From the NCBI GenBank assembly GCA_963965975.1, contig OZ014423.1:1-64000 (forward strand): DNA of 64,000 bases, in the 5' to 3' direction. Under the pieces are notes generated by a model, which was not told the origin of the DNA, did not search any database, and saw only the letters and a list, made by a program, of their open reading frames with translations. Positions 1-40,562 of this stretch are shown here, piece after piece. A program made the position numbers and the translations under genes. Source of the DNA: Xestospongia bergquistia (lineage: Eukaryota; Porifera; Demospongiae; Haplosclerida; Petrosiidae). Every line of letters starts with the position of its first letter. Position 1 is the first letter of the stretch.

Positions 1-715
1 TGCTAAAACACATACAGGGACATATGTCCCTGTATGGTTTCCCATTTTTTTAATGAAATAGGTGTGGCTACTTTAGGTCTACCCAACCCCACAATTAATT
101 CATTCCAGGCCAATAAGTTTTCAGATTTATTCAAAAAGTCCCACAAGGACATATGTCCCTAAAAATGACCCATCTTTTTTATGTATGGTCATGTACAACT
201 ACCTCAGGTAAAACTATAACAGAAACTACTTTGCACCAGGGCACACTCTATTTGTAGTTATTGCTCAAAGACCTAAACATGAGGGACATAGAGAGACGTA
301 TTTTATTTCATTGAAGAGGGAGGAGCTATGGTTCAGGTAAACATTCATTGTGGTTGACCTTCACAAGACATGCAACCACACCCATTTGTAGGAGTCTAGT
401 GCGTTATGTTAAATGAGGGACGTAAGGGACATAAGGGACATAATATGTCCCTCGAGGAAGAAATGATATTCATAGATGTTTATGGGTACCATGGTAACCA
501 TCAACCAAAACCCTACTGAAAGCACCGAAACTCCCAACTCTCAGCTTTTGTATACAAGACTTATACCCTAAAACATAATGTGCCTCAAAAAATAATGATA
601 TTCATTGGTACCAATGTGACCCTTAACTCAACCTCTACTAAATGCACTAAAATTCCCAACTCTCTGCTATTGTATACAAGAGTTAGCCATTTGTCACTGA
701 AGATTTAATGATGTT
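1..715. other. Non-coding left flank with palindromic GGGACATATGTCCC sites
   Basis: No convincing exon was seen. The stretch contains a 26-bp perfect palindrome at 11-36, a half-degenerate copy at 146-160, single GGGACATA half sites near 283, and a compound cluster at 415-457 (three direct GGGAC(A/G)TA half sites followed by an inverted ATGTCCCTC). Two stretches near 481-560 and 600-690 resemble each other (both have a GGTACCA-type core followed by an AACTC-CAACTCTC segment and TATACAAGA), suggesting an old short duplication. Confidence 0.5.
11..36. repeat. 26-bp perfect palindrome with AGGGACATATGTCCCT core
   Basis: The 26 bases read identically on both strands, centred between 23 and 24. 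The inner 16 bases are AGGGACATATGTCCCT, the same palindrome found at 6641-6656. A perfect dyad of this length repeated on both sides of a recombinase gene is what a protein-binding or strand-exchange site would look like; binding is inference. Confidence 0.75.
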
Positions 716-1390
716 GATGCAGTAATACTGTATTAATGCAGTATTGATGCAGTATCATTGCAGTGCTGATGCAGTAATGCAGTATTGATGCAGTATTGCT
801 TCCGTATTGCCATATTAATGCAGTACCAATGCAGTATTGATAGCAGTATCAATGCAGTAATGACGTATCGATGCAGTAATGCAGTATCGATGCAGTATCA
901 ATGTACTAATGCAGTATCGATGCAGTATCAATTCAGTAATGCAGTATTGATGCAATAATGCAGTATCAATACAGTATCGAAGCAGTAATGCAGTATCGAT
1001 GCAGTAATGCAGTATCAATGCAGTATCGATGCAGTATCAATACTGCATTACTGCATCAATACTGCATCAATACTGCATTACTGCATCGATACAGTATTAA
1101 TGCAGTATCGATGCAGTACCGATGCAGTACCGATGCAGTAGTAATGCAGTATTGATGCAGTAATGCATTAATGTTGCCGTAATGCAATATTGATGCAGTA
1201 TCAATGCATTAATGCAGTATTGATGCAGTAACGCAGTATTGATCCAGTATTAAAGCAATAATGCATTAATGCTGCCGTAATGCAGTGTTGATGTAGTATT
1301 GATGCAGTAATGCAGTATCAACGCAGTAATGCAGTGTTGACGCAGTATTGATGCAGTAATGAAGTATCGCTCCAGTATTGCTGCAATAGT
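716..1390. repeat. Minisatellite of TGATGCAGTA-type units
   Basis: The stretch is built from irregularly alternating short units: ATGCAGTAATGCAGTAT, GATGCAGTAT, ATCAATGCAGTA and a few inverted copies (ATACTGCAT near 1040-1090). Unit length drifts between about 8 and 12 bases. Both strands give open frames of 60-70 codons (for example 815-1018 and 958-1155), but these only read the repeat (YCID/QYRCS peptides) and are not genes. The inverted block at 1040-1090 allows cruciform pairing with its neighbours. Confidence 0.85.
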
Positions 1391-1868
1391 GTATTAAGCA
1401 CTGCCGAAACCCTAACCGTGGGAAAGTAAACTTGTTGCATTGTTAGAAAGTTTCATTAGAAGGAATATTGTGTGCAGAGTTTCTGAAAAACTGCAGGCAT
1501 TCTATGTGGAATAATGTCATCCATTTTAAATAGTCCACACCTATCAGAACACACCTATTCAAAAAAATGGCCTACAGGTTAGTTTATTGGCTTGGTGAAA
1601 TGTTGCATTTTACTTCTTCTGTGCAAAGAAAAACTATCAAAAAAGTATCGTGCCGCCTGTCACTAAGCAAAGGGTCATTAGTAAGGTAAAAATTTTAAAG
1701 TGCCTACAACATGCTTTAATAACATTATTTCATATCAGATTAATCAAGAGACACACACCGTCAAGGTAACTTTTATTGACAAAATGTATTATATCATTGC
1801 ACATTTCAGATCCAACATCTCCTCAGGTAATGAAATATCGGATACGTAAATGGCAGTGAGTCATTGGC
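1391..1868. other. Unassigned stretch upstream of the recombinase gene
   Basis: Apparently single-copy AT-rich sequence. An upstream exon of the SET-recombinase gene should lie here or inside the next low-complexity tract, because the exon at 2191 begins at a splice acceptor. One weak candidate is an ATG at 1600 followed by about 28 open codons up to AG/GTAAAA near 1688; its exit phase does not match the exon at 2191, so it is not called. Nothing else was recognised. Confidence 0.35.
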
Positions 1869-1876
1869 CATATATG

Positions 1877-1934
<58 letters not shown>

Positions 1935-2180
1935 TATATAGATATATATAGATATATATATGTATATATATATATAAATTTATTTATTTATTTATTTTAC
2001 TTTATTTTTAATTTATTTTATTTATTTTATTTTAAAATAAAATGAAATAAAATAAATAAAATAAAATAAATAATCTAAAATAAAAATTAAAAAAATAAAA
2101 TAAATAAATAAAATTAAATAAATTAATAAATAAAATAAAATAAATTAAAATAAAAATAAAATAATTAATTAATTTTTATA
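1869..2180. repeat. (TA)n and (AAATAAAATA)n low-complexity tract
   Basis: An alternating TA tract (about 1869-1975) runs into T-rich ATTTATTT sequence and then its A-rich complement AAATAAAATA (to about 2165). The T-rich and A-rich halves around 2030 are mutually complementary and could fold back. It ends a few bases before the splice acceptor at 2189-2190. Confidence 0.85.
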
Positions 2181-2190
2181 TACTTCCAAG

Positions 2191-3510
2191 ATGAATCTAC
2201 AGAGGCGTCTGTCCACAACAGAGGAAAAGGTAAGTTTGCTGTCACAAATTTCTTTATTTTTTATTTGTTTTTTGTTCCAAGACGAATCTACAAAGGCAGC
2301 TGTGCACAGCAGTGAAGAAGGTAAGATTGTGTTAATTTTATTTCTTTATTTTCCATCAGAACTGATTCGTTCGTCTCAAAAGAGAATGTAAGTAAAACTT
2401 ACAATATCCTTATTTTATCATGTCACCTAGACGTACAATGAGCAGTAGCAGCGACGAAGGTAAGCCAAAGTATATTCTACTATCTAATGTTACATGTTTT
2501 ATAGATCTTCACAGACAAGGTATGTAATGTTGCTCTTTTTATGAATATCATCCAACAGTCTCAGTATCTCCTTCGTCGCATGAAATAACGTGAGTAACAC
2601 TTGCTATACATTTATCTTATCATGTGGCATAGACCTTCTTTAAGTGAAGAGAGCTTATCAGAAGGTAAGCCATGGGTTTGGTACACTCTAATGTTTTATG
2701 TTTCATAGATGACAATGTCACAGAACCACAAGGTATCCAGTGTTCAGTTTCGTATATTTCAATATCTTTGAGCAGTTGCTGTAACTCCACCTCCTCTTCC
2801 TCCTCCTCTCACTGTAACTCCTCCCCCTCTTCCTTCTCCTCCCAGGACAAGGTGAATAAAGCTTATAATAGTCTTATTTTATCATTTTGCCCAGAACTTC
2901 AGCACGCCTACTGAAAGGGTAAGTAATGCAAAGAATATATACAACTCTTACAATTAGAATGTTTAGACAAAAGTCTATCCTGTCATATTACAGCCAAAGA
3001 CAAAGTTTGCAATGATTAGTTGTATGCATTGATTTAAATTTTACAGGTCCAGTTACAACTACACAAGAACATTGTAAGTAGTCTCTCTAACATGTACATT
3101 TTGATTTTTTGGATAAATTACAGCTCCTCTCCCATCTCCACCGATAGACTGTAAGTGCAGGTAGTATTTTGCATTGTAGATTTTGACACTTCTAATAGCC
3201 GATATACAACTCACGGGTTTCGAAGAAGGTATGCAATGTTTACTTTTATGTACTAACTCACATGGTCCAGGACCAGACATCCAAGAAATCGTCTCAGATG
3301 AATTAGGTTTGCATTTACTATCTTGCATTTAACTCAAGTCATACAGGTTACTCAGCTGACTCTGAGACATCATCTGATGAGTCACTGCCAGTTGAAGAAA
3401 CAAGTAAGATCAAAGAATAGTTTCTTTAACAGAGTATAATGCATGTAAACCTTCAATCTACAATACTTTCTAGCATCAGACGACAACCTGAGAAGATCCA
3501 CTAGAGTCAG
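2191..3510 (+). other. Micro-exon ladder with about 75-bp exon+intron period
   Basis: Sixteen exons of 15-76 nt, mostly 24-39 nt, are separated by introns mostly of about 40-50 nt with GTAAG/GTATG donors and AG acceptors. Exon starts recur at about 71-78 bp: 2282, 2360, 2431, 2505 and again 3047, 3124, 3199, 3271, 3347. Many exons are phase 1 at both ends, so they can be added or skipped without breaking the frame. Exons 2191-2229 and 2282-2320 are clear duplicates: both 39 nt, both start after a TTCCAAG acceptor, and they encode DESTEASVH and DESTKAAVH in the working frame. The same pattern resumes after the SET domain at 4197, 4273 and 4349, three 30-nt exons spaced exactly 76 bp. Confidence 0.75.
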
Positions 3511-6102
3511 GTTACCAATTTAATTGCACTTCATAATATGAATGCATCATTAGGCACATAATATCACCCAAGGAATACGTTATTACATGCCTGGACAGAA
3601 ACATTGAGGCAAACCTGGAGATAAGATTTCTCCCCGCACGAGGTATGTGCATGGTAGTAATTTCTTGAATTTGTTCCTTTAGGAAGATCCGTCTTTGCGA
3701 AGGAGCCAATCAAGTCAGGAAATTATATAACAGAGTACAAGACCGTGAGTGTCTTGAAAGAGAGACAGTACAGAGTTAGAGAGAGAGAATACCTCCGAAA
3801 CGAGGAAAAGACGGCGGCCGTTGAGGCCAAAATTGATGGTCACCGTTACTTTTTCGATGCCACCAGACGATTGGAGCAATATGGCGCCTATATTAATCAC
3901 TCGATTAATCCAAACATACGACCGTTCCCTCCTGTGTTTGTGCGCGGAAAATATAGATTTGGCTTCTTGGCCATGCGTGACATAAGTCCCGGGGAGGAAT
4001 TGACCTGGGATTACAATACTAGAGATCCCAAATGGCCTTGGTTGAGCGGTCTTGATCCTCCCAAGGCTGAAAAAGGTAAGTTAATATTTGTAAGTGGATG
4101 CTTTTCATTTTTCCCAATACAACAAACAGCATCCCAATCCCCCCCAATGAGTAAGTGTACAGAATTCTTAACTAGCACTTTCATAACTTCCTTTAGGCTC
4201 TCTCTCACCTCCACCGTCTCCATCCCGTAAGTCTAGAGTATTGTAATTTGACAGTTTTCCAACTTGCTTTAGGATCTCACTCTTCACCGAAAGCTATGTC
4301 ACGTAAGTCTAGTGTGTTCTTGTCTTGCACTTTTTTCACTTCCATTAGGAACAACTCCAAAAGTCAAGACATCTAAGAGTAAGTTTATTAGATGGTCAAT
4401 AATAACATCATGCCATTACAGCCAACTACAAGACATACAGAAAATCTTATTTCTGCCCTGTGGACGGCTGCAGAAATACCAAGGCAATTAAGAAATTGTC
4501 CAACCATCTCATAGCCTTCCACAGGTTAACTGACGTTACAGTGAGGAAAGAGCTGCTCCGCAAGGCAAAAGTCGCAGGGCCACAGCCCCATGGCAGACAC
4601 CAAATTACCATAACTCAAGCTCTCTCCTCAGCATCGTCGTCGTCTGCAACGACGCATCTCGTAATCCCACAAGTAAGTACCTAACATGTCACATCATGCA
4701 AGTGTACACTAGAGTACTCACTACAGACCACAACAGCATACTGCATGCTACAGCGCACTAGATATCTTTTCAATAAAATGTAGGGTCCAAAAAAAAGAGG
4801 TTCAACACGGCATTTTGCTAAATATAGTGAAATACATCCTGAGCTTTTACAGTTGTACTCTAATCTCGTTTCTTTCGATGGGGGGTCCAGGCCCCCCAAA
4901 GAAGTCAAGCAAATTGTTGCTGACATATCTAAGGTATTAGCCTTTCGCCAGCAGGGACCACTCCAGTGGTCCCTGCTCACTGACATCGAGCACATCAAGT
5001 CATATGTAGACACTCTTCTTACCAATGACATCGGGCCCGACGGAGTGTCTACTAAAATTGACCGCATTGTCATGGGCCTAAACTACCTCTCTAGAATGAA
5101 ATACATAAGTCACCCTCAAAATACCATCTCTCGGTTGAAGGAGTGGCAGACCTCATTCAAACGAGCCAAGTTTATGAAGGACCATGCCAGGGCGCTTAAA
5201 ACACCGGCCCCTGACACACTAGATACTGTAAGAGCTTTTTTTGAAAGCGAACACCTGAATCACTTTCTGTCACGTATGGAAACCTCACTGTCTCCCAGTT
5301 CAAGCGAAACAGACATAAACCATCTTGTCACATTTCTCTTCTGCTCCCTGACATACTCAAACCTTCAGCGCCCGGGTGCCGTCATCAATATGACTGTGCC
5401 CGAGGCAACAGCTGCAATACCTGGAGAAGATGGTCATTTCGTCTACACTTCAGCAGACCATAAAACAGGGAATGTGTATGGTCCGGCCCACATGGTCTTG
5501 AATCCCCAGGCTGCCCATCTCTTTTCAATGTACCTAAAAGACGTGAGACCAACTATCGTCTCATCATCTGATAAAGCCCTGGTCACATACAATGGCTCGC
5601 CATTGACTCATTACAGGGATTTAATTAGATCACTCTGCACAAAATTCCACCTTCAGATGCTACCTAATCTCACCACCATGCGAAAGGCAGGAGCAACTGC
5701 TGCTGTGAGTGACTTACCACCTTCCGAAATGGAGGTGGTAAGTCACCACATGTCACATTCGAGTTCCACATCGGAGCGGTTCTATAGAGAAAGAAATAGA
5801 ACCACTGAGGCGCAGCAGGCATTCAAGGCAATTTCAGCCGTAACAAGTAAGGTCTTGATGCATCTATATTGAATTAAAGTCTTGTGTTTATAGCTAACCC
5901 GAGACCAAAGCCACAACCGAATAGAGGCTTTAGCCTTGAAGTCATCAACTTGATTGAAGAGGACCTTCAAATGTTTATAAACACCCCTAAGACGGCTCCA
6001 CTCTCAGTTTGCCGTCAATTTCTCAAAAAACACAGCATCACTGACAAGACAGCTAAACAGCTGCAAGATAAACTGAGGTCTATATATAAAAGTAAGAACT
6101 AG
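2191..6102 (+). CDS. SET domain - zinc finger - tyrosine recombinase protein (5' incomplete)
   Basis: Exons read from GT/AG sites and an unbroken frame: 2191-2229, 2282-2320, 2360-2387, 2431-2459, 2505-2519, 2559-2589, 2633-2664, 2709-2732, 2776-2851, (2895-2918), 3047-3073, 3124-3150, 3199-3228, 3271-3305, 3347-3403, 3474-3510, 3554-3642, 3683-4075, 4130-4150, 4197-4226, 4273-4302, 4349-4378, 4422-4672, 4784-5846, 5894-6102 (TAG). About 880 codons. The N-terminal part is Ser/Pro/acidic low complexity; then come a SET domain (3554-4075), a short SP-rich linker, a C2H2-like finger (4422-4672), a tyrosine recombinase (4784-5846) and a C-terminal Myb-like tail (5894-6102). The frame holds on each side of 2852-3046 but I could not carry it across that gap, so an exon is misread or a 1-nt lesion exists. 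The true start lies upstream: the exon at 2191 starts at an acceptor, and its ATG is out of the working frame. The protein should act in the nucleus, inserting its element and perhaps methylating chromatin; the methylation role is inference. Confidence 0.82.
3683..4075 (+). other. SET-domain exon, KMT5A-like
   Basis: Together with the exon at 3554-3642 this encodes a SET methyltransferase fold. Landmarks are the N-flank GRSVFAKEPIKSGNYITEY, the INHS motif of the cofactor and pseudoknot site (AAT-CAC-TCG at 3895-3903), and SPGEELTWDYNTRD near the C-terminus with the expected tyrosine. The domain ends with DPKWPWL instead of a Cys-rich post-SET zinc site. This order best matches SETD8/KMT5A-type lysine methyltransferases (H4K20 in the known members); the substrate here is unknown. 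All hallmark positions I can check are present, so the domain may be active. Confidence 0.85.
4422..4672 (+). other. C2H2-like zinc-finger exon
   Basis: The exon encodes a Cys-x4-Cys-x12-His-x4-His arrangement (YFCPVDGC ... LSNHLIAFH) followed by a basic helix (VRKELLRKAK) and a Ser/Thr-rich linker. Single fingers of this kind just before a tyrosine recombinase are known in animal Crypton-like proteins. Its likely job is DNA or chromatin binding for the element. Confidence 0.65.
4784..5846 (+). other. Tyrosine recombinase (Crypton-like) catalytic exon
   Basis: The domain shows the tyrosine recombinase residue order: Arg I in YSNLQRPGAV (codon 5369-5371), the beta-hairpin Lys in DHKTGN (5462-5464), Arg II in TTMRKAGAT (5681-5683), the His of HHMSHS (5756-5758) and the nucleophile Tyr in ERFYR (5783-5785). 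The His usually found three residues before Arg II is Thr here, as in several Crypton-like families. An upstream helical region (4850-5250) matches the core-binding part by position. The reading frame is intact, with no stop from the acceptor at 4783 to the donor at 5847, so the copy may be functional. If the donor at 5847 is not used, the frame ends at 5872 without the C-terminal tail. Confidence 0.85.
5894..6102 (+). other. C-terminal Myb-like / homeodomain-like tail exon
   Basis: The last exon joins in frame (phase 1) after the recombinase and encodes about 69 residues: a proline-rich linker, then a predicted helical segment with spaced hydrophobics (FSLEVINLIEEDLQMF) and a basic end (QLQDKLRSIYKSKN) before TAG at 6100-6102. 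Crypton-like proteins often carry a DNA-binding tail at this place; that is family knowledge, and the fold here is not proven. Confidence 0.6.
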
Positions 6103-6440
6103 GACAGGTCTTTTTTTGTCTGTATATTTTCATTTATCATTGTATATTTTAATCACAATTTATTATAAATATATTGTCTGTATACCATCACTTATGTAAT
6201 CCAATCTTGTAAATATATATTTTAATCACCATTTATCATAATATATATTTATTTATCATTATATATTTTAATCACCATTTATCAAACATATATATATATA
6301 TATATACAGTTATAAAGTCTAAGTACATAAGACCAAGTCTAAGTACATGAGACCAAGTGGTACTTGAGACCAAGTGAAAGTACATGACACAAAGTAGACA
6401 TGAGACAACAACACTGTCAATGTAATTACCCATAAAAATA
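6103..6440. other. AT-rich 3' flank of the recombinase gene
   Basis: No gene was seen. Two near-identical segments (ATATTTTAATCACCATTTATCA at about 6214-6235 and 6264-6285) form short direct repeats, followed by a TA run (6287-6305) and repeated GTACATGAGACCAAGT-type units (about 6320-6380). Presumably this is 3' UTR and element filler. Confidence 0.5.
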
Positions 6441-6768
6441 AAGAGACATATGTCCCTGAGGGACATCAGAGCAAGTATAAGTACATGAACCTAAGTATGA
6501 GTACATGACAATAAGTATATATAAATACATGAGACTAAATAAAGGGACATATATCCCTGACAGACATAATTTGGAGGCTCACAACACCAAACAACTCTAA
6601 ATGTACAATTATGATAAACCACAAAGTTCAAAAGATAGTGAGGGACATATGTCCCTAGGAAAATATGTCCCTGACAAAATTTTTCAGGGACATATATGTC
6701 CCTCAAAAAATTTTTCCGGGACACAATATGTCCCTCCAAACACAAAAGGGACATATCCCGGGACATAA
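6441..6768. repeat. Right cluster of AGGGACATATGTCCCT palindromes
   Basis: At least six copies: 6443-6457 (one mismatch) plus a half site to 6466, 6543-6557 (GGGACATATATCCC), 6641-6656 (perfect 16 bp), a half site 6662-6673, 6686-6703 (perfect 18 bp with two added bases at the centre), 6718-6735 (imperfect) and 6747-6768 (two half sites in direct order). Half-site spacing varies while GGGACATA is constant, which points to a protein recognising GGGAC half sites rather than to one duplicated hairpin. Confidence 0.75.
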
Positions 6769-6775
6769 AGTCAGG

Positions 6776-7385
6776 CCTAAACCCTAAACCCTAAACCCTA
6801 AACCCTAAACCCTAAACCCTAAACCCTAAACCCTAAACCCTAACCCTAAACCCTAAACCCTAAACCCTAAACCCTAAACCCTAAACCCTAAACCCTAAAC
6901 CCTAAACCCTAAACCCTAACCCTAAACCCTAAACCCTAAACCCTAAACCCTAAACCCTAAACCCTAACCCTAAACCCTAAACCCTAACCCTAAACCCTAA
7001 ACCCTAAACCCTAAACCCTAAACCCTAAACCCTAAACCCTAAACCCTAAACCCTAAACCCTAAACCCTAAACCCTAAACCCTAAACCCTAAACCCTAAAC
7101 CCTAAACCCTAAACCCTAAACCCTAAACCCTAAACCCTAACCCTAAACCCTAAACCCTAAACCCTAAACCCTAAACCCTAAACCCTAAACCCTAAACCCT
7201 AAACCCTAAACCCTAAACCCTAAACCCTAAACCCTAAACCCTAAACCCTAAACCCTAAACCCTAAACCCTAAACCCTAAACCCTAACCCTAAACCCTAAA
7301 CCCTAAACCCTAAACCCTAAACCCTAAACCCTAAACCCCTAAACCCTAAACCCTAAACCCTAAACCCTAAAACATAAACCCTAAC
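6776..7385. repeat. CCCTAAA telomere-like heptamer array
   Basis: About 86 near-perfect copies of CCCTAAA run head to tail on the + strand. Six places contain a hexamer CCCTAA instead (near 6841, 6914, 6966, 6985, 7140 and 7285), and one contains CCCCTAAA near 7337. The heptamer is the plant-type telomere unit; animals normally have CCCTAA. The array begins directly after the palindrome cluster of the mobile element and ends at a sharp inversion. Confidence 0.95.
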
Positions 7386-8195
7386 ATTAGGATTAGGGTT
7401 TAGGGTTTAGGGTTTAGGGTTTAGGGTTTAGGGTTTAGGGTTTAGGTTTAGGGTTTAGGGTTTAGGGATTAGGTTTTAAAGTTTAGGGTTTATGGTTAGT
7501 GTTTAGGAGTTATGGTTTAGGGTTTTAGGGTTTTAGGGTTTAGGGTTTAGGGTTTAGGGCATTAGGATTAGGGTTTAAGGTTTAGAATTTAGGATTTAGG
7601 GTTTACATTTAGGATTTAGGGGTCAGGGTTTATGATTTAGGGTTAGGGTTTAGGGATTAGTGTTTAGAGTTTTGTTTTTAGCGTTTAGTAGAGGGATTAG
7701 GGTTTAGAAGTAAGGGGTTAGGGTTAAGGGTTTAGGTATAGAGATTTAGGATTATGGACTAGGATTTAAATTTTAGGATTTACGCTTTATGGTTTAGGGC
7801 TTTAATGTTTAGGATTCAGTGTTTAGGATTTAGGGTTTAGGGTTTTTGAGTTAGGATTTAGAGTTTAGGTTTGGGGTTTTGGGGTTTAGGTTTTAGGTTG
7901 TTGGGTTTAGGGTTTACGGTTTAAGGTTTAGGGTTTCAGGGTTTAGATTTTAGGGTGTAGGTGTTTGTAATTAGGTTTTAGAGTTTAGGGTTTTGTTTAG
8001 GTTTAAGGGTTTAGGTTTTAGGCTTTAAGATTTGTTCTTTAAGGTTTAGGTTTTTTGTGTTAGCTTTTAGGGTTTTGTGGATTAGGTTTTATGTTTTACG
8101 GTTTAGGGTTTAGGGGTATATGGTTTGGGTTTAGTGTTTAGGGTTTAGAGTTTTAGGGTTATGGTTTTAGAGTTAGGGTCTAGAATTTAGGCTTT
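7386..8195. repeat. Inverted, decaying TTTAGGG array
   Basis: At 7380-7390 the sequence turns over through CCTAACATTAGG and continues as TTTAGGG on the + strand. The first ten or so units are clean; after about 7450 the units carry more and more substitutions and indels, and by 8100-8190 only a TTTAGG-like texture remains. The decay is one-sided: the CCCTAAA arm is pristine. Confidence 0.9.
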
Positions 8196-11100
8196 AGAAA
8201 TTTTGAAACTCTTTTTTTCTTAGTTTTTGGAGCCAAAAATTTTTAAAAATTAATCCTTTAATTCCTACGTTTTTTGGTGCCTAAATATGCTTATTTTAAC
8301 CACTTAGTCACCCACAAAAGGTTAGAAATTTATAAACTCTTTCTTTCTGAGTTTTTTTGGCGCCAAATACTTTTTAATTACTACGTTTTTAGGCGCATAA
8401 ATACGCGTATTTAACCCCTTAGTCACCTACAAAAGGTTACTAATGTTTAAAATCTTTTTCTAAGTTTTTTCGCGCCAAAAATTTTTAAAAATTTACCCTT
8501 TAATTCCTACGTTCTTTGGCGCCAAAATAAGCGTTTTTTAACCCCTTAGTCACCCAAAAAAGATTAGGAATTTTTAAAGTCTTTTCTTGTAAGTTTTTTG
8601 GCGCCAAAAAAATTTAAAAATTAACTCTTTAATTCCTACGCTTTTAGCGCCTAAATACACGTGTTTTAACCCCTTAGTCACCAACAAAGGTTAGGAATTT
8701 TTAAACTCTGTTGCTAAGTTTTTTGGGTGCCAAAAATTTTTTAAAAATTAACTATATAATTCCTACATTTTTTACGCATAAATCGCGTATTTCAACTAAG
8801 TCACCCACAAAAGGTTAGAAATTTTTTAAATCTTTTTTTCTAAGTTTTTTTGGCGCCTATAGTTTTTAAAAATTAACCCTTTAATTCCTACGTTTTTTGT
8901 CGCCTAAATACGCGTATTTTAACCCCATAGTCACACACATAATGTTAAGAATTTTTAAACTCCTTTTTTTTCTAAGTTTTTTTTGCGCCAAAATTTTTTA
9001 AAAATTAACTCTTTAATTCCTACGTTTTTGACGCCTAAATACGCGTATTTTAGCCCTTTAGTCACCAACAAAATGTTACGAATTTTGAACTTTTTTTTAA
9101 AAGTTTTTAGGCGATAAAATTTTTTAAAAATTAACCCTTTAATTCCTACGTTTCTTGACGCCTAAATACTCGTATTTTAACCTCTTAGTCACCCACCAAA
9201 AATGAGGAATTTTTGAATTTTTTTTTCAAAATTTTTTGGCGATAAAATTTCAAACTTAACCCTTTAATTCCTACATTTTTGCACGTAAATACGCGTCTTT
9301 TAACCCCTTAGTCAACCTCATAATGTTAGGAATTTTTAAACTCTTTTTTTATAAGTTTTTTGGGCGCCAAAATTTTTAAAAATTAACCATTTAATTCCTA
9401 CATTTTTTACGCATAAATACGCGTATTTTGACCCCTTAGTCACCCACAAAAGGTTAGAAATTTTTTAAATCTTTTTTTTCTATTTTTTTTTGCGCCAAAA
9501 TTTTTTAAAAAATTAACCCTTTAATTCCTACGATTTTTGGCGCCTAAATACGCGTATTTTAGCCCCTTAGTCACACACATAATGTTAAGAATTTTTAAAC
9601 TCATTTTTATCTAAGTTTTTTTTGCGCCAAAATTTCTTAAAAATTAACCCTTTAATTCCTACGTTTTTTGGCGCCTAAATACGCGTATTTTACCCCTTTA
9701 GTCACCAACAAAATGGTTAGGGATTTTTAAAAATTTTTTTTAAAGTTTTTTGGCGATAAAATTTCAACATTCACAATTTAATTCCTACATTTTTTGAGCC
9801 TAAATACGCGTATTTTAACCCCTTAGTCAACCTCATAATATAAAGAATTTTTAAACTTTTTTCTAAGTTTTTTTGCGCCAAATTTTTAAAAAATTAACAT
9901 TTTAATTCCTACATTTTTTACGCATTAATACGCGTATTTTAACCCTTTAGTCACCCACAAAAGGTTAGAAATTTTTTTAATCATTTTTTTCTAAGTTTTT
10001 GCGCCAAAATTTTTTAAAAATTAACCCTTTAATTCCTACGCTTTTTGGCGCCTGAATACGCGTATTTTAGCCCCTTAGTCACCAACAAAATGTTAGGAAT
10101 TTTTAAACTTTTTTTATAAAGTTTTTAGGCGATAAAAATTTTTTAAAATTAACCCTTTAATTACTTCGTTTCTTGACGCCTAAATGTTCGTATTTTAACC
10201 CTTTACTCAACTACATAATTTTAGGAATATTGAAAGTCTTTTTTTTCTGTTTTTTCGCGCTAAAAATTTTTAAATATTAACCCTTTAATTCCTACCTTTT
10301 TGCGCTTAAATACGCGTATTTTAACTCCTTAGTCACCCACAAAAGGTTAGAAATTTTTTGAATCATTTTTTTTCTAAGTTTTTTTTTCGCAAAATTTTGT
10401 AAAATTTAACCCTTTCATTCCTACGTTTTTTGGCGCCTAAATACTCGTATTTTAGCCCCTTAGTCACCAACAAAATGTTAGGAATTTTTAAACTTTTTTT
10501 TAAAGTTTTTAGGCGAAAAAAATTTTTAAAAATTAACCCTTTAATTCCTTCGTTTCTTGACGCCAAAATACTCGTATTTTAACCCCTTACTCAACTACAT
10601 AATGTTAGGAATTTTTAAACTCTTTTTTTTCTAAGTTTTTTCGCGCCAAAAATTTTTTAAATTAACCCTTTAATTCCTACATTTTTGTCGCCTAAAGACG
10701 CGTATTTTAACCCCTTAGTCTACCTCATAATGTTAGGAATTATTAAGCTCTTTTTTTTCAAAGTTTTTAGGCGATAAAAATTTTTAAAAATTAACCCTTT
10801 AATTCCTACGTTTCTCGACGCCTAAATACTCATATTTTACCCCCTTAGTCAACCTCATAATGTTAGGAATTTTTAAACTCTTTTTTTATAAGTTTTTTTA
10901 CGCCCAAAATTTTTAAAAATTAACCCTTTTATTCCTACGTTTTTTGGCACCTAAATACGAGTATTTTAACCTCTTAGTCACCCAAAACATGTTAGGAATT
11001 TTTAAACTCTTTTTTTCTTGGTTTTTTTGGCGCCAAAAATTTTTAAAAAATAACCATTTCATTCCTACGTTTTTTGGCGCCTAAATACGCGTGTTTTAAC

Positions 11101-14100
11101 CCATTAATCACCCAAAAAAGTTAGAAATTTTTAAACTCTTTTTCTAAGTTTTTTAGGTGCCAAAAATTTTTTTTAAAAACCATTTAATTCCTACGTTCTT
11201 TGGCGCTTAGTATGCGTGTTTTTACCTATTAATTACCCACAAAAGGTTAGGAATTTTTAAACTCTCATTTCGAAGATTTTTTACGCAAACATTTTTTTAA
11301 ATTAACCTTTTTTCCTACGTTTTTTTGTAGCCTAAATACGCGTATTTTAACCTTTTACTCACCCACAAAAGGTTAGGAATTTTTAAACTATTTTTTTCTA
11401 AGTTTTTTGTGCGCCAAAAATTTTTAAAAATTAACCATTTAATTCCTACATTTTTTGCGCATAAATACTCCTATTTCAACCCCTTAGTCACCCACAAAAG
11501 GTTAGAAATTTTTAAAATCTTTTTTTTTTAATTTTTTTGTTGCCAAAAATTTTTAAAAAATTAAACCTTTAAATTTTACGTTTTTGGGCTCCTAAATATG
11601 CGTATTTTAACCCGTAAGTAACCCACAAAAGGTTAGGAATTTTTAAACTCTTTTTTTTCAAAGTATCTTGGTGCCAAAAATTTTTTTTAAAATTTACCCT
11701 TTAAATCCTACTTTTTTTGTCGCATAAATGCGCGTATTTTAACCCCTTAGTCACCCAAATAAGGTTAGGAATTTTTAAACTTTTTCTAAGTTTTTTGGCG
11801 CCAAAAATTTTAAAAATTAACCCTTTAATACCTACGTTTTTTGCCGCCTAAATACACATATTTTAACCCTTTAGTCACCAAAAAAAGGCTAGGAATTTTT
11901 CAACACTTTTTTCCAAATTTTTTTTAGTGCCAAAATTTTTTAAAAATTAACCCTTCAATTCCTACGTTTTTTGCCGCCTAAATACGCGTATTTTAACCCT
12001 TTAGTCACCAACAAAAGGTTAGGAATTTTTAAATCTTTTTTTCTAAGTTTTTTTGGCGCCAAAATTTTTTAAAAATTAACCCTTTTATTTTTATTTTTTT
12101 AGACGCCTAAAGAAGCGTATTTTAATCCGTAAGTCACCCACAAAAGGTTAGGAATTTTAAACTCTTTTTTTTCAAAGTTTCTTGGCGCAAAATTTTTTTC
12201 AAATTTACACTTTGATTCCTACGTTTTCTGGCGCCTCAGTACGCGTACTTTAACCCTTTAGTCACCCACATAAGGTTAGGAATTTTTAAACTCTTTTTTT
12301 CTAATTTTTTTGGCACCACAAATTTTTAAAAATTAACTCTTTAATTCCTACGTTTTTTGGCGCCTAAGTACGCGTATTTTAACCCCTTAGACACCCACAA
12401 AAGGTAAGAAATTTTTCAAAATGTTTTTTTTTAATTTTTTTTGGCGCCAAAAATTTTTAAAAATTAACTCTTTAACTCTTACGTTTTTTGCGCATAGATA
12501 CGCGTATTTTAACCCCTCAGTCACCCACAAAAAGTTAGGACTTTTTAACTTTTTTTTTTAACTTTTTTAGCGCTAAAATTTTTTTAACATTAACCCTATA
12601 ATTCGGACGTTTCTTGACTTCTAAATACGCGTATTTTAATACCTTAGTCACCCACACAATGTTAGAAATTTTTAAAGTCTTTTTTTTCTAATTTTTTTGG
12701 CGCCAAAAATTTTTAACAATAAACTTTTTAATTCCTACTTTTTTGTCGCCTAAATACGCGTATTTTAACCCCTTAGTTAACCCTATAATGTTAGGAATTT
12801 TTTAACTTTTTTTCTAAGTTTTTTTGTGCCAAAACTTTTTAAAATTAACCCTTTTATTCTACGTTTTTTGGCGCCTAAATACGCGTATTTTAACCCCTTA
12901 GTCACCAACTAAATCTTAGGAATTTTTAAACTTTTTTTTCTAAGTTTTTAGGTGATAAAAATTTTTAAAAATTAACCCTTTAATTCATACGTTTTTTTCA
13001 CGCCTAAAGACGCGTATTTTAACCCCTTACTCAATCACATAATGTTAGGAATTTTTAACCTCTTTTTTTTTCTAAGTTCTTTTGCGCCAAAAATTTTAAA
13101 AATTAACCTTTTAATTCCTACGTTTTTTGGCGCATAAAAACGCGTATTTTAACCCCTTAGTCACCAAAAAAATGTTAGGAATTTTTAAACTTTTTTTCAA
13201 AGTTTTTTGGCGATAAGAATTTTTAAAAATTAACCCTTTAACTCCTACGTTTTTTGACGCCTAAATACGCGTTTTTTAACCGCTTAGTCACCCACAAAAG
13301 GTTAGGAATTTTTTAACTCTTTTTTCTAATTTTTTTACACCAAACATATTTAAAAATTAACCCTTTAATTCCAACGTTTTTTGGAGCCAAAAAACGTGTA
13401 TTTAACCCCTTAGTCACCCACATTAGGTTAGAAATTTTTAAACTTATTTTGCTAAGATTTTTTGCGCCAAAATTTTTAATAATTAACCCTTTAATTCTTA
13501 CATTTTTTGCCAAAACACGCGTATTTTAACCCCTTAGTTACCTTCAAAAGGTTAGAAATTTTAAAAATCTTTTTATCTAAGTTTTTTTTGCTCCAAAAAT
13601 TTTTAAAAGTTAACGATTTAATTCCAACATTTTTTGGCGCCACAATACGAGTATTTTAACCACTTAGACACCAACAAAATGCTAGGAATTTTTAAACTCT
13701 TTATTTCTAATTTTTTACAAGCCAAAAAAATTTTTAAATGTTAACCCTTTAATTCCTACGTTTTTTGCGCCTAAATACGCGTGTTTTAACCCTTATACAA
13801 CCACATAATGTTAGGAATTTTTAAACTCTTTTTTTTCTAAGTTTTTTTTACGCCAAAATTTTTTAAAATTAACTCTTTAATTCCAACGTTTCTTGACGCC
13901 TAAATACTCGTATTTTAACCCCTTAGTCACCCAAAAAATGTTATGAATTTTTAAACTCTTTTTTTCTAAATTTTTTTGGCACCAAAAATTTTTTAAAATT
14001 AACCCTTTAATTCCTACGTTTTTTGCTGCCTAAATACGCGTATTTTAACCCTTTACTCACCCACAAAAGGTTAAGAATTTTTAAACTATTTTTTTCTAAG

Positions 14101-17100
14101 TTTTTGGGCGCAAAAAATTTTTAAAAATTAACCCACTAATTCCTACATTTTTTGCACATAAATACGCCTATTTCAACCCCTTAGTCACCCACAAAAGGTT
14201 AGAAATTTTTAAAATCTTTTTTTTCTGTTTTTTTTTGGTGCCAAAAATTTTTTAAATTAAACCTTTAATTTTTACGTTTTTTGGCGCCTAAATACGCTTA
14301 ACTTAACCCGTAAATAACACACAAAAAGTTAGGAATTTTTAAACTCTTTTTTTTCAAAGTTTCTTGGCGAAAAAATTTTTTTAAAATTTACCCTTCAAAT
14401 CCTACTTTTTTAGCGCCTAAATGCTCGTATTTTAACCCCTTAGTCACCCACATAAGGTTAGGAATTTTTAAACTCTTTTTTTCTAAGTTTTTTGGCGCTA
14501 AAAATTTTAAAAAATTAACCCTTCAATACCTACGTTTTTTGCCGCCTAAATACGCGTATTTTAACCCTTTAGTCACCAAAAAAAGGTTAGGAATTTTTAA
14601 ACATTTTTTTCGCGCCAAAATTTTTAAAAATTAACTCATTAATTCCTAAGTTTTATGCGCCTAGATACGCTTTAAACTTCTTTAAGTTTTTGGCGCCAAA
14701 AATTTTTTAACCTTAACCCTTTAATTCCGACGTTTTTTGACTCCTAAAAACGCGTATTTTAATCCCTTAGTCAACCACATAATGTTAGGAATTTTTAAAC
14801 TCTTTTTTTTCTAAGTTTTTTGGCGCCAAAAATTTTTAAAAATTAACCATTTAATTCAGACGTTTTTTAGCGCCTAAAGACGCGTATTTTAACCCCTTAC
14901 TCACCCACATAATGTAAGGAATTTTTAAACCCCTTCTTTTTTTAAGTTTTTTCGTGCCAAAAATTTTAAAAATTAACCCTTTAATTTCTACGTTTTTTTA
15001 TGCCTAAATACGCGTATTTTAACCCCTTAGTCACCTACAAAATGTTAGGAATTTTTAAACTTTTTTTAAAAAGTTTTTAGGCGATAAAATTTTTTAAAAA
15101 TTCACAATTTAATTCCTACGTTTTTTGCGCCTAAATAAGCGTATTTTAACCCCTTAGTCAACCTTATAATGTTCGGAATTTTTTAACTTTTTTTTTCTAA
15201 TTTTTTTGCGCCAAAATTTTTTACAAATTAATCCTTTAATTCCTTCGTTTTTTTCGCCTAAATACGCGTATTTTAACACTTTAGTCACCAAAAAAATGTT
15301 AGGAATTTTTAAACTTTTTTTAAAAGGTTTGAAGGAGATAAAAATTTTTAAAATTAACCCTTTAATTCCTACGTTTTTTCATGCCTAAATACGCGTATTT
15401 TAACACCTTAGTCAACCACATAATGTTAGGAATTTTTAAACTCTTTTCTAATTTTTGGGCGTCAAAAATTTTAAAAATTAACCCTTTAATTTGTTTTTTT
15501 ATGCCTAAATACGCGTATTTTAACCCCTTAGTCAGCCACAAAATGTTAGGAATTTTTAAACTTTTTTTAAAAAGTTTTTAGGCGAAAAAATTTTTTTAAA
15601 ATTCACAATTTAATTCCTACGTTTTTTGCGCCTAAATAAGCGTATTTTAACCCCTTAGTCAACCTTATAATGTTCGGAATTTTTTAACTAAATTTTTTTC
15701 TAATTTTTTGCGCCAAAATTTTTTACAAATTAATCCTTTAATTCCTACGCTTTTTGGCGCCTAAATACGCGTATTTTAACACTAGTCACCAAAAAATGTT
15801 AGGAATTTTTAAACTTTTTTTTCTAAGTTTGAAGGAGATAAAAAATTTTAAAATTAACCCCTTAATTCCTACGTTTTTTCACGCCTAAATACGCGTATTT
15901 TAACACCTTAGTCAACCACATAATGTTAGGAATTTTAAAACTCTTTTCTAATTTTTTGGCGTCAAAAATTTTAAAAATTAACCCTTTAATTTCTATGTTT
16001 TTTTATACCTAAATACGCGTATTTTAACCCGTTAGTCACCCACAAAATGTTAGGAATTTTTAAACTTTTTTAAAATAGTTTTTAGGCGATAAAATTTTTT
16101 TAAAATTCACAATTTAATATCCTACTTTTTTTGCGCCTAAATAAGCGTATTTTAACCCCTTAGTCAACCTTATAATGTTCGGAATTTTTTAACTCATTTT
16201 TTTTCTAATTTATTTGGCACCAAATTTTTTTACAAATTAATCCTTTAATTCCTACGTTTTTTTGGCGCCTAAATGCGCGTATTTTAACACTTTAGTCACC
16301 AAAAAAATGTTAGGAATTTTTAAACTTTTTTTTCTAAGTTTGAAGGAGATAAAAAATTTTAAAATTAACCCTTTAATTCCTACTTTTTTTCACGCCTAAA
16401 TACGCGTATTTTAACACCTTAGTCAACCGCATCATGTTAGGAATTTTTAAACTCTTTTCTAATTTTTTGGCGCCAAAAATTCTTAAAAATTAACCCATTA
16501 ATTCCTACGTTTTTTGCCGCCTAAATACGTGCATTTTAACCCTTTGGTCACCCACAAAAGGTTAGGAATTTATAAACTCTCTTTTTCTAAGTTTTTTTCA
16601 GGCCAAAAATTTTTTAAATTTAACCCTTTAATCCCTACGTTTTTTGGCGCTTATATACGCGTGTTTTAACCCCTTAATCAACCTCAAAAGGTTAGGAATA
16701 TTTAAAATCTTTTTTTCTAAGCTTTATGGATGCTAAAAAATTTTTAAAATTAACCATTCAATTTCTACACCTTTTGCGCATAAATACGCGTATTTTAACC
16801 CCTTAGTCACCCACAAAAGGTTAGAAATTTTTAAAATCTTTTTTTCTAAGTTTTTATGGTGCCAAAAATTTTTAAAAATTAAACCTTTCATTTTTACGTT
16901 TTTTGGCACCTAAATAAGGATATTTTAACCCGTAAGTAACCTACAAAAGATTACAAATTTTTAAACTCTTTTTTTCAATGTTTCTTGGCTTCAAAATTTT
17001 TTTTTAATTTACCCTTGAATTCCTACTTTTTTTGGCGCATATATGCGCGTATTTTATCTTCTTAGTCACCAACAAAATGTTAGGAATTTTAAAACTCTTT

Positions 17101-20100
17101 TTTTCCAACTCTTTTTGGCGCCAAAAACTTTTTTAAAATTAACCCTTTAATTCCTACTTTTTTGAGCCTAAGTACGCTTATTTTAACCCCTTAGTCACCC
17201 ATCAAAGGCTAGAAATATTTACATCTTTTTTTCTAAGTTTTTTTGCGCCAAAAATTTTTAAAAATTAACCCTTTAATCTCTACGTTTTTTGGCGTCTAAA
17301 AACGCGTATTTTAACCCTTTAGTCACCAACAAAATCTTAGGAAGTTTTAAACATTTCTTTCAAAGTTTTTTGGCGATAAGAATTTTTAAAAATTAACCCT
17401 TTAATTCCTACGTTTTTTGACGCCTAAATACGCGTATTTTAATCACTTAGTCAACCACATAATGTTAGGAATGTTTAAACTCTTTATTTTCTAATTTTTT
17501 TTGCACCCAAATTTTTTTAAAATTAACCCATTAATTCCTACGTTTTTTGCGACTAAGTACGCGTATTTTAACCCCTTAGTCAACCTCATAATAATATTAG
17601 GAATTTTTAAAATTTTTCTAAGTTTTTTGCGCCAAAAATTTTTAAAAATTAACCCTTTAATTCCAAAGTTTTTTGGCGCCTTAAAACGCGTATTTTAACC
17701 CCTTACTCACAAACAAAAACTTAGGAATTTTTAAACATTTTCTTCAAAGTTTTTTGGCAATAAGAATATTTAAAATTAACCCATTAATTCCTACTTTTTT
17801 GGACGCCTAAATACGAGTATTTAAAACCCTTAGTCAACCACATAATGTAAGGAATGTTTAAACTCTTTTTTTCTAAGTTTTTTTGTGCCAAAAATTTTTA
17901 AAAATTAACCCTTTAATTCCTACGTTTTTTGGCTCCTAAATACGCGTATTTTAATCCTTAGTCACCCAAAAAATGTAGGAATTTTTAAACTTTTTTTTCT
18001 AAATTCTTTTGGCACCAAAAATTTTTAAAAATTAAACTTTAATTTCTACGTCTTTAGGAGCCAAAATACGCGTATTTTAAAACCTTAGTCACCCACAAAA
18101 GGTTAGGAATTTTTAAACTCTTTATTCTAATTTTTTGCACAAAAATTTTTTTAAAATTTACTTTTTAATTCCTACGTTTTTTGGCGTCATAAAATGCGTA
18201 TTTTACCCCTTAGTCACCCACATAAGGTTAGAAATTTTTAAACTTTTTTTTAAAAGATTTTTTTCACCAAATTTTTTTTAAATTAACCATTTAATTCCTA
18301 CATTTTTTGGCGCCTCAATACGCGTATTTTAACCACTTAGTCACCAACAAAATGTTAGGAATTTTTAAACTCTTTATTTTAAGTTTTTTAGCGCCAAAAT
18401 TTTTTTAAAACTAACCCTTTAATTCCTACGTTTTTTGCGCCTAAATACGCGTAATTTAACCCCTTTGTCACCACAAAAGGTTAGGAATTTTAAACATTTT
18501 TTTCTAAGTTTTTTAGCAATAAATTTTTTTTCAATTTTCCCTTTAATTCCTTTTTTTTAACGCATAAATACGCGTATTTTAACACCTTTGTCAACCACAT
18601 AATGTTAGGAATTTTTAAACTCTTTTTTTGTAAGTTTTTTTGCGCCAAAATTTTAAAAAATTAACCCATTAACTTCAACCTTTTTTGGCGCCTAAACACG
18701 CGTATATTAACCCCTTAGTCACCAACAAAAGGTTAGGAATTTTTAAACTCTTTTTTTTAATTTTTTTTGCACCAAAAATTTTTAAAAATTCACCCTTTAA
18801 TTCCTACGTTTTTTAGCGCCTAATTACGCGTATTTTAACCACTTAGTCACCCACATAATGTTAGGAATTTTAAAACTCTTTTTTCAAAATTTTTTTGATC
18901 CAGAAATTTTTAAAAATTAACCCTTCGATTTCTACGGTTTTTGGCGCCTAAATACGCGTATTTTAACCCCTTAGTCACCACATTATGTTAGGATTTTTTA
19001 AACTCTTTTTTTCTAAGTTCTTTTTTGCGCCAAATATTTTTAAAAATTAACCCTTTAATTCCTACGTTCTTTAGATACATAAAAAGCGTATTTTAACCCC
19101 TTAGTCACCCATACAAAGTTATGAATTTTTAAACTTATTTTTCTAAGATTTTTTACGCCAAAAATTTTTAAAAATTAACCGTTTATTTCCTACATTTTTT
19201 TGAGACTAAATACGCGTATTTTAACCCCTTAGTCAACCACAAAAGGTTAGAAATTTTTAAAATCTTTTTTTCCAAGTTTTTTTAGGGCCAAAATTTTTTT
19301 AAAATTAACCCTTTAATTCCTACGTTGTTTGGCAACAAAATACACGTATTTTATCCCCTTCGTCACCCACAAAAGGTTAGGAGTTTTTAAACTCTTTTTT
19401 TCTAACTTTTTTTTGCCAAAAAATTTTAAAAATTAACTCTTTAATTCCTACGTGTTTTAGCGCCAAAACACGCGTATTTTAACCGTTTAGTCACCCACAT
19501 AAGTTTAGGAATTTTTAAACTTTTTTTCAAATTTTTTTGGCTCCAAAAATTTTTAAAAATTAACCCTTTAATTCCTACGTTTTTTGACGCCTAAATACGC
19601 GTATTTTAACCCCTAAGTCACCAACAAAAGGTTAGGAATTTTTAAACTCTTTTTTTTCTAATTTTTTTGCGCTAAAGATTTTTAAAAATTAACTATTTAA
19701 TTCCACATTTTTTTGCGCCTAAATACGCGTATTTTAACCTTTTAGGCACCCACAAAAGGTTAAAAAATTTTAAAATCTTTTTTTTAAAGTTTTTGGGCGC
19801 CAAAAATTTTTAAAAATTAACACTTTAATTCATAATTATTTTGGCACCTAAATACGCGTATTTCAACCCCTTAGTTACCGAAAAAATGTTATGAATTTTT
19901 AAACTCTTTTTTTCCAATTTTTTTTAGAGCCAAAAATTTTTAAAAATTAAACCTTTAATTCTTACGTTTTTAGGCGCCAAAATACACGTATTTTAACCCC
20001 TTAGTTACCCACAAAAAATTAGGAATTTTTAAACTCTTTTTTCTAATTTTTTTGGCACCAAAAATTTTTAAAAATTAACCCTTTAATTCCTACGTTTTTT

Positions 20101-23100: not shown

Positions 23101-23451
23101 TTTTTTAAATTAACCCTTTAATTCTTACGTTTTTTGGAGCCAAAATACGCGTATTTTAACCCTTTAGTCACCCACAAAAGGTTAGGAATTTTTAAACACT
23201 TTTTTAAAAGCTTTTTTGGAGCCAAAATTTTTAAAAATTAACACTTTAATTCCTACATTTTTAGGCGCAAAAATACGCGTTATTTAACCCCTTAGTCACC
23301 CACAAAAGTTTAGGAATTTTTAAATTCACTTTTCTAATTTTTTTGGCGAAAAAAATTTTTAAAAATTAACCGTTTAATTCCTACGTTTTTTGGCGCCAAA
23401 AAACGCGTATTTTAACCCCTTTGTCACCCATATTAGGTTAGGAATTTTTAA
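8196..23451. repeat. 130-bp satellite with GGCGCC and ACGCGT dyads, >100 copies
   Basis: Monomers of about 125-133 bp, all in one orientation, run for about 15.25 kb, giving roughly 115-120 copies. In each monomer the order is: TTAATTCCTACG, T-run and GGCGCC, TAAATACGCGTATTTTA, AACCCCTTAGTCACCCAC, AAAAGGTTAGGAATTTTTAA, a T-rich tract, CTAAGTTTTTTGGCGCC, AAAAATTTTTAAAAATTAAC. Three dyads stand out: AAATACGCGTATTT, TTTTGGCGCCAAAA and AATTTTTAAAAATT. Divergence between neighbours is considerable, so no cleanly recent subfamily was seen, but locally repeated variants exist (around 15,110, 15,600 and 16,100). Open frames inside it (for example 10363-10566, 15206-15388) only read the repeat. No gene was seen. 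Confidence 0.95.
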
Positions 23452-32400: not shown

Positions 32401-32450
32401 TTATATATGTACTGAAGATTGTCTTCATGCTCTTGTGGGGCGCCTATGAA
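23452..32450 (-). repeat. 342-bp satellite derived from an RNA gene, about 26 units
   Basis: Units of about 341-346 bp start inside the last 130-bp monomer (junction about 23452) and stop mid-unit at about 32450. Read on the - strand, each unit has an upstream block (GTTAATGAGATTCA ... GCGCCCCACAA ... GCATGAAGAC), a TATA box (ACATATATAAAG), then a region matching the first 100-130 nt of the structured RNA gene at 62461 on the + strand (GCCAGTGTGTTGTGGGCC, the TACTC-loop-GAGTA hairpin, GGGCTGGTAG). Beyond that point similarity is lost and no T-run terminator is present. A 76-codon open frame (ATG to the end of GSLSLWR) recurs in most units, but it is not conserved in the 62-kb copy, where indels break it. 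Both array edges cut within a unit. Confidence 0.92.
27840..31850 (-). repeat. Higher-order repeat of about 2,005 bp, two copies
   Basis: Distinctive unit variants recur at an offset of 2,004-2,005 bp: 27898 and 29903, 28491 and 30495, 28772 and 30776, 29447 and 31452 (all near-identical). The block includes one shortened unit (the deletion joins CTACCAGCC directly to ACACTGGCAATC at about 28260 and 30270) and one unit with a 45-bp internal duplication of the TATA segment (about 29290-29385 and 31300-31395; a related copy at 27290-27385). An earlier pair at an offset of about 2,058 bp (24083/26141, 24424/26483) hints at an older round. Confidence 0.85.
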
Positions 32451-32780
32451 CCACAATAACCCACCAATCAGACATCATCTGCCACACCCACTGACTATTT
32501 TAATTGTGGCTTACTTTGACCACACCTCATATTTCAATTATTCCTAGGTCAGCCTAGAATATAAGCCTGACTATACACACAAATATTACAGCTGACACAC
32601 CTACCAACAATTGGGTGTGGCATATTCTGACCACACCTCGTATTTCAATTAATCCCTAGGTCAGCACCACGCACAATTATAGTAGACAAGCCTATCAACT
32701 ATTGGGTGTGGCTTATTTGGACCACACCTCATACTTTTATTAATGCTCTAGGTCTGCCCAGAATAGCCTTGGCATGTTTG
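32451..32780. repeat. Three degenerate copies of a TGTGGC...CCACACCTC unit
   Basis: Three blocks at about 32503, 32613 and 32705 each read TGTGGC(T/A)TA followed by GACCACACCTC(A/G)TA, an AT stretch and CTAGGTC(A/T)G. TGTGG and CCACA make each block a short inverted repeat. GTGTGGC elements of this kind also appear as single copies elsewhere in the window (for example 46454, 50567). No coding potential was seen. Confidence 0.6.
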
Positions 32781-40367: not shown

Positions 40368-40562
40368 TATTAATAGAGAAGACACTTTCTTTCAATACAC
40401 AGTAACTTTGTCTTAAGAGAAACCAGTCCAGTACTCTCGTAAATAGTAAACGACTTGTCAGCAATCACTCTTCCCTCAAAAATTTACACGACTAATTAAT
40501 TATCATTTCAAGTGGGCGTGACTTATTGTGCATATCTAAGCAACAGACATATCCATCACAAC
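40368..40562. promoter_or_regulatory. Shared divergent promoter of two prominin genes
   Basis: Only 195 bp separate the two start codons, so both promoters and 5' UTRs must fit here. No TATA box is evident; a GTGGGCGTGACTTATTGTGC segment lies at 40511-40530. Shared control is inference from spacing. Confidence 0.5.

Follow-up and report, generated by a model that had tools for sequence, protein, structure and literature searches.

We analysed the first 64,000 nucleotides of contig OZ014423.1 of the sponge Xestospongia bergquistia (assembly GCA_963965975.1; 146 Mb in 21 contigs, 15 of them longer than 5 Mb), referred to below as the window and corresponding to C13:1-64000 in the contig numbering used here. 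The window opens on the plus strand with a copy of a mobile element (1-6775) of a family which we term F1, in which the exons predicted for a SET domain and for a tyrosine recombinase (YR) are both open. This copy is truncated by the contig start: base 8 corresponds to position 1543 in a complete deletion derivative of 3,611 bp from the same family, the first ~1,535 bp would fall beyond base 1, and a full-length F1 element would measure about 8.3 kb, provided that window copy and derivative are collinear. The gene stops at 6102 and the element ends with ...AAAGTCAGG at 6775, directly at a telomeric array.

Ten predicted exons between 3474 and 6102, all on the plus strand, have AG acceptors and, except for the last, GT donors; joined, they form a single frame in which the first stop is the final TAG. 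Two exons (3474-3510 and 3554-3642) lie upstream of SET and encode a segment with RHIISPKEY, which has counterparts before SET in the copies at C1:61.4k, C4 and C1:27k (copies are named by contig and position), being in-frame with the SET start in the latter two. They are followed by the exon of a KMT5A-like SET domain (3683-4075), a linker of four in-phase mini-exons of 21, 30, 30 and 30 bases (4130-4150, 4197-4226, 4273-4302 and 4349-4378), an exon with a C2H2-like finger of the form CPVDGC...H...H (4422-4672), for which zinc-finger families of Pfam matched below the cut-off only, the YR exon with the residues R, K, R, H and Y (4784-5846) and a C-terminal tail exon with the stop codon (5894-6102). 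Counterparts of the tail follow the YR in C1:37.7k, 61.4k, 27k and 68k, and a remnant is present in an element of a second family, F3, on C3. A first exon with an ATG at 2191 and a GT donor after 2229 (2191-2229) has been proposed; the joins that we traced begin at 3474. The exon joins from SET through the finger to the YR are supported by other copies, since finger and YR form one uninterrupted frame in C1:37.7k (509 amino acids), C1:61.4k (503 amino acids) and C1:28.16M (435 amino acids), and since in C1:37.7k SET is set off from the finger-YR frame by a single 43-base GT-AG intron, the removal of which leaves 675 stop-free codons. The one-frame gene, joined by predicted splicing, which the preliminary description of this DNA had read from the window is confirmed in the DNA by the ten exons, with support for the joins from these three copies.

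The window SET matches Pfam family PF00856 with an E-value of 6.3e-19 over profile positions 1-105 of 105, bearing out the SET assignment with a complete domain. Searched alone against PDB, it is closest to ASH1L (E 1.6e-10), KMT5A being weaker (1.9e-5), and a profile built from four element SETs places 4ldg, which we take to be a SET8-type protein, at the top (51.2 bits), followed by SETD2, ASH1L and KMT5A (44.5 bits). When the C1:27k SET is divided, its C-terminal half finds 14 PDB chains, all 14 of them KMT5A/SETD8, the matches being weak (best E 2.3e-4) and including the final PWLK, whereas the N-terminal half gives mixed matches to 4ldg, KMT2D, SETD2 and KMT5A. The likeness to KMT5A proposed earlier appears supported but not settled by these comparisons: the C-terminal half speaks for it, whereas the N-terminal half is mixed and the window SET is nearest to ASH1L. 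Within the element SET alignment NHS is invariant (4/4 rows), and the final DY is found in all three rows reaching that point.

In the recombinase, the second R, the H and the Y are invariant in six of six aligned sequences, and all four sequences that cover the first R and the K retain both; the C1:27k and C1:68k sequences were left out of this alignment, each having a stop inside the match. The residues named in the preliminary description are conserved in these sequences.

All match counts for the genome are lower bounds; searches with the window exons gave at least 35 matches for YR and at least 20 for SET. SET is followed by YR on the same strand at eight places, i.e. in the window, at C1:27k, 37.7k, 61.4k, 68k, 78k and 28.16M and at C4:5.05M, with 0.4-2.4 kb between the matches. 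The same order at seven further places shows the two parts travelling together and supports the earlier reading of a mobile element with a SET-YR protein. Three copies are open (window, C1:37.7k and C1:28.16M), and the other five of the eight are damaged, with stops in 27k, 68k, 78k and C4 and a frame change in the SET of 61.4k. Identity to the window amounts to 88% for the YR of 78k, 44% for 37.7k, 39% for 61.4k and 38% for 28.16M, and for SET to 87-88%, 62%, 52% and 49% in the same copies. Selection was assessed on four of the eight copies for YR and on three of the eight for SET, plus the pair of window and 78k. Across the six YR pairs of window, 37.7k, 61.4k and 28.16M the proportion of synonymous differences (pS) is 0.81-0.85, i.e. 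saturated, and the proportion of nonsynonymous differences (pN) is 0.39-0.46; the three SET pairs of window, 37.7k and 28.16M show pS 0.92-0.95 and pN 0.31-0.39. Comparing the window with the broken copy C1:78k yields a pN/pS of 0.26 for YR, and over the first 68 amino acids of SET a pN of 0.045 against a pS of 0.192. Both SET and YR have been kept by selection, pN remaining below pS in each comparison.

Besides the SET and YR exons, the longest frames in window 1-6790 comprise 92 amino acids on the plus strand (finger) and 133, 121 and 99 amino acids on the minus strand; a Pfam scan found no family in these three minus-strand frames and none in six of seven other frames, the seventh giving one weak unrelated match. 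In the first 1,700 bp of the derivative the longest frame has 95 amino acids. No reverse transcriptase or RNase H was found in window 1-6790, where part of the frames was scanned and introns could hide pieces, and a retrotransposon identity was rejected on the ground that the scanned frames hold no reverse transcriptase.

The element ends in telomeric DNA, a target which is key to its nature and was absent from the preliminary description. We take TTTAGGG as the host telomere repeat because the right tips of C2 and C15 and, from ~20 bases inward, the left tip of C14 consist of CCCTAAA/TTTAGGG repeats. In the window the last part of the element (6443-6775) holds palindromes and the 3' terminus GGGACATATCCCGGGACATAAAGTCAGG and is joined at CCTA to the target, a plus-strand array (CCCTAAA)n of 609 bp with 87.7 copies and 97% matches (6776-7384). 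The copies at C1:78k, 37.7k and 61.4k can be aligned with the window as far as 6793, 6793 and 6799, respectively, i.e. through the terminus and about two to four telomeric repeats. The 3' ends of the window copy, C1:78k, 37.7k, 61.4k and 28.16M share the form AGG(C/G)CTAAACCC, 78k having the variant AGGCGTAAACC, and the copy at C1:28.16M, whose YR is 38% identical, ends CGAGG/GCTAAACCC (here and below the slash marks the junction) and borders a telomeric array close to the opposite end of C1. A telomeric 3' junction is thereby present in five of the eight SET-YR copies. The sequence TCAGGNCTAAACCCTAAA occurs six times in the genome, always at chromosome ends, the reversed control giving none.

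As side observations, TTTAGGG is the plant-type telomere repeat, found here in an animal genome, and a telomerase RNA-binding domain gave one partial match in the genome (E 1.5e-5). Inward of the array that adjoins the element lies a second one of opposite orientation (window 6776-8197: CCCTAAA, then degenerate TTTAGGG), a head-to-head arrangement observed at five places.

The 5' ends of elements begin at CCCTA/TAT within telomere arrays at 14 sites. They were located with the pattern CCCTAAACCCTATAT, which has 23 genome matches (reversed control 0), 14 of them an array followed by an element start (four for F1, four for a third family, F2, and six for F3) and nine not. Because this pattern imposes the junction phase, F1 and F3 starts were also searched without the telomere letters. 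The F1 start was then found at five places, four at an array and one directly behind another F1, and the F3 start at 13 places, six at an array and, among the nine that were read, three head-to-tail (C3:6600, C1:10081 and C14:6316); C1 carries four F3 starts spaced by exactly 3,901 bp. At 13 of the 14 array sites the element's 5' end faces the chromosome tip; C10:7302837, 33 kb from the end, is the one that departs from this. F3 is related to F1, its 3,642-bp unit on C3 retaining a piece of the tail domain (44% identity over 32 amino acids); the F2 stretch fetched was mostly masked. F3 and F2 sites were noted at chromosome ends (C2:3977, C3:2958, C5:11190, C14:2293 and C1:6180-17883; C8:7964, C10:7290155 and C10:7302837), with stacks that include F1 on C5 and C8.

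F1 also exists as deletion derivatives in which the sequence of window 6-878 is joined to that from 5667 onward. Seven of these lie on six chromosome ends (C2 right, C5 left, two on C5 right, C8 left, C8 right and C15 right), with no difference in any of the seven over the 2,735 bp compared. The derivative is complete, at 3,611 bp, at C2 right and C8 left, where it starts CCCTA/TATACTTGACCGG behind a telomeric array. Decayed SET/recombinase clusters were in addition observed deep inside chromosomes (C4:5.05-5.12 Mb and C7:5.97-6.02 Mb), the one on C7 holding a further deletion derivative with window 299-874 joined to 4816-5218; such internal clusters could mark former chromosome ends. Dense SET-domain clusters with dozens of matches at C7:0.84-0.90, 3.43-3.95 and 4.32-4.34 Mb are a separate observation, none of them being among the 20 matches listed for the window SET.

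Where elements stand head-to-tail, the join reads AGTCAGG-CCTATATA-CTTGACC in F1 and AAGGG-CTATAT-CCCTG in F3, i.e. short inverted arms around a core with CTA, which is also contained in the telomere unit CCCTAAA. Sites of tyrosine recombinases consist of two inverted repeats of 11-13 bp around 6-8 bp (PMC3212892), and judged by their sequence both joins follow this plan, with arms shorter than 11-13 bp. A circle junction should show the same sequence as these head-to-tail joins. As direct repeats F1 has CCTA on both sides and F3 has CTA (3 bp), the 5' ends of the full SET-YR copies being unread. Subterminal palindromes GGGACATATGTCCC mark the end of a ~130-bp repeat array (17-159; exact at 17-30, one mismatch at 146-159), with five matches of at most one mismatch in the window against 0.01 expected. 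In the 5' part of the derivative six exact copies of GGGACATATGTCCC follow in a row, 128-130 bp apart, and F3 has as counterpart seven palindromes GGGCCATATGGCCC at 130-131 bp, in which the symmetry is kept and the sequence differs from F1. These spaced palindromes are likely binding sites.

These features are compatible with a model according to which the YR excises (or copies) the element as a circle, the junction of which, predicted as GTCAGGCCTATATACTTGACC plus its F3 form, would constitute a lox-like site with inverted arms around CTATAT. The YR would recombine the CTA of the circle junction with the CTA in CCCTAAA, and an exchange of this kind in the telomere would therefore fix the orientation of insertions and spare genes. 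The 5' palindromes spaced by ~130 bp would be bound by the finger or the tail. For SET a chromatin function is speculation; most likely it would act on telomeric nucleosomes, either by methylating lysine (H4K20 type) wherever copies of the element lie or by tethering the recombinase to telomeric chromatin.

We consider F1 very probably to be a YR-driven DNA transposon whose only predicted protein combines SET, a C2H2-like finger, YR and a conserved tail, and which integrates into the host telomeric repeat. Several results weigh against this reading and concern firstly the protein. The window YR has no credible match in Pfam or PDB, and a YR profile has none in PDB; six YR members searched against Pfam matched no Crypton or integrase family, as would have suited the description as Crypton-like, and instead four unrelated families with one member each (best E 0.017). 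In PHROGs the YR members found no credible match, the best (E 0.0013) being without a named function. An hhalign comparison of YR with the phage integrases of lambda, HP1 and P22 returned a probability of 0.2%, which carries little weight because the template was poor, consisting of three sequences of which two share 15 and 22% identity with the first. For the window YR by itself, AlphaFold2 reached a predicted local distance difference test score (pLDDT) of 46.8, with 64 of 355 residues at 70 or above and residues 130-355 below 50. The identity of the YR rests on its motif and on the behaviour of its elements; the term Crypton-like holds for the working plan, but membership by sequence has no Pfam support among the six members. 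The label Myb-like for the tail found no backing either, the sole Pfam match being unrelated and below the cut-off. The YMYYF stretch of 4ldg stands opposite AAVEA when aligned with the profile of the element SETs and is altered in the SETs of window, C1:37.7k, 61.4k and 28.16M; full methyltransferase activity is therefore doubtful.

A second group of adverse points concerns the ends and the genomic position. The window copy's own 5' end lies off the contig. The short F1-join pattern was found at two places, one of them unrelated, and is not specific, since its reversed control gave three. Copies C1:27k, 68k and C4:5.05M lack a telomeric junction in the 1.5 kb behind the YR match, and the C4 copy sits far inside its chromosome. 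Telomere repeats were present at only three of the 20 contig ends read, eight being masked and nine other sequence, two of these nine (C5 right and C8 right) lying inside F1 elements. Finally, the identical copies at chromosome ends can also be explained by subtelomere recombination or by assembly error.

The SET domain could be a dead or changed enzyme that binds histones and tethers the recombinase at telomeres, a variant that is compatible with a telomere-targeting transposon and that we regard as quite conceivable. The YMYYF tyrosines have been lost while purifying selection on SET continues, as this variant would have it, but the invariant NHS (4/4 rows) and the final DY (3/3 rows reaching it) speak for a retained enzyme. 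It is improbable, in our view, that the copies are instead a host subtelomeric SET-YR gene family that ectopic recombination has carried from one chromosome end to another and that does not itself transpose at present. Such recombination would account for most array junctions lying at chromosome ends, for the identical stretches on six ends and for the shared orientation of 13 of the 14 junctions relative to the chromosome end. It does not readily produce the same junction phase in three families with different starts, a phase which the F1 and F3 searches did not impose, nor exact ends on both sides, nor head-to-tail joins sharing the same core, and the inner flanks vary between copies.

That a SET gene and a YR transposon are mere neighbours making two proteins is very improbable. 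The window and the open copies do have SET and YR on different exons, and the fusion is predicted from the DNA, but the joins are in phase via four mini-exons, C1:37.7k has a single short intron, the order is the same in eight copies, and both parts are under selection and show the same rank of divergence. Chance neighbourhood was rejected on the in-phase joins and the eight copies. Hardly plausible at all is the remnant of a telomere-inserting large DNA virus of the endogenous nimavirus type with only integrase and SET left: the YR of nimaviruses does have a C2H2 domain, and these viruses do insert in telomere repeats (PMC10871703), but we rejected this origin given an element of ~8.3 kb if collinear with the derivative, no Pfam family in any other searched frame, no frame of viral core genes seen in window 1-6775 or the derivative, and 31 pattern matches in viral_contigs of which none proved a relative by tblastn.

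Further along the window lies a satellite (8373-20000) whose unit carries a GGCGCC palindrome; its period of 128-129 bp is near the 128-131 bp of the subterminal repeats in the elements, and similar sequence was seen by eye at the start of C4. A ~341-bp tandem repeat with a repeated minus-strand frame (23377-32474) resembles, again by eye, the starts of C6, C9 and C12. The regions 37520-43622 and 44147-49070 hold Prominin-like exons on both strands, the plus-strand one above the Pfam cut-off, and two similar, oppositely directed frames, one with an Hsp70 match below the cut-off, which we take to be of HSPA12 type. Rfam gave no matches in the window. Wnt genes were noted at three loci of the genome; together with Prominin they mark the host as an animal.

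If the transposon reading is true, one transposon protein combines a telomere-finding recombinase with a histone methyltransferase domain, a pairing not met in the literature searched; no SET-YR transposon is described in the titles and abstract openings covered, subscription papers and Repbase reports lying outside that scope. Rather doubtfully, this can be extended to a transposon family that lives in telomeric repeats, brings a KMT5A-type enzyme and writes the histone state of the ends it occupies, stacks of elements building part of the subtelomeres and perhaps taking part in chromosome-end structure. The system would offer a testable example of a mobile element that reaches a safe harbour with a chromatin function of its own. 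It would also provide a naturally occurring recombinase specific for sites in telomeric DNA and serve as a model of subtelomere building, the predicted recombination site, target and protein being defined enough for in vitro tests.

Compared with known systems, the element SET resembles KMT5A/SET8, a histone H4K20 methyltransferase, in its C-terminal ...DY...PWL ending, and differs by its fusion to a recombinase and by the changed YMYYF stretch. SETMAR, a domesticated host gene in which SET is fused to a mariner transposase and whose SET is among the PDB matches of our profile, likewise unites SET and a transposon recombination enzyme in one protein, whereas here the fusion resides within the mobile multicopy element itself. 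With Cryptons the element shares YR as sole recombination enzyme, the absence of long terminal repeats, direct or inverted, short terminal direct repeats and a proposed circle; Cryptons have terminal direct repeats of 4 to 6 bp and, in some groups, extra domains (C48 peptidase, GCR1_C; PMC3212892). The telomeric target and the SET domain set the sponge element apart from them. The Crypton-derived family given there as DUF3504 is not among the Pfam hits of the six YR members. TATE of trypanosomatids is a YR retrotransposon whose tandem clusters always occupy the same relative position in telomeric repeats (PMC6681497); the fixed phase in the telomere is common to both, but TATE is a retrotransposon, whereas the sponge element, in which no reverse transcriptase was found, carries SET and has an animal host. 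The endogenous nimaviruses of crustaceans possess a telomere-specific YR with C2H2 and SAM-like domains and thus provide a YR with C2H2 inserting in animal telomere repeats (PMC10871703); they differ in having large viral genomes, with SET unmentioned in the part of the source covered, and the comparison with them is one of described features. YR elements are able to choose telomeres, since both TATE and the nimavirus recombinases do so (PMC6681497, PMC10871703).

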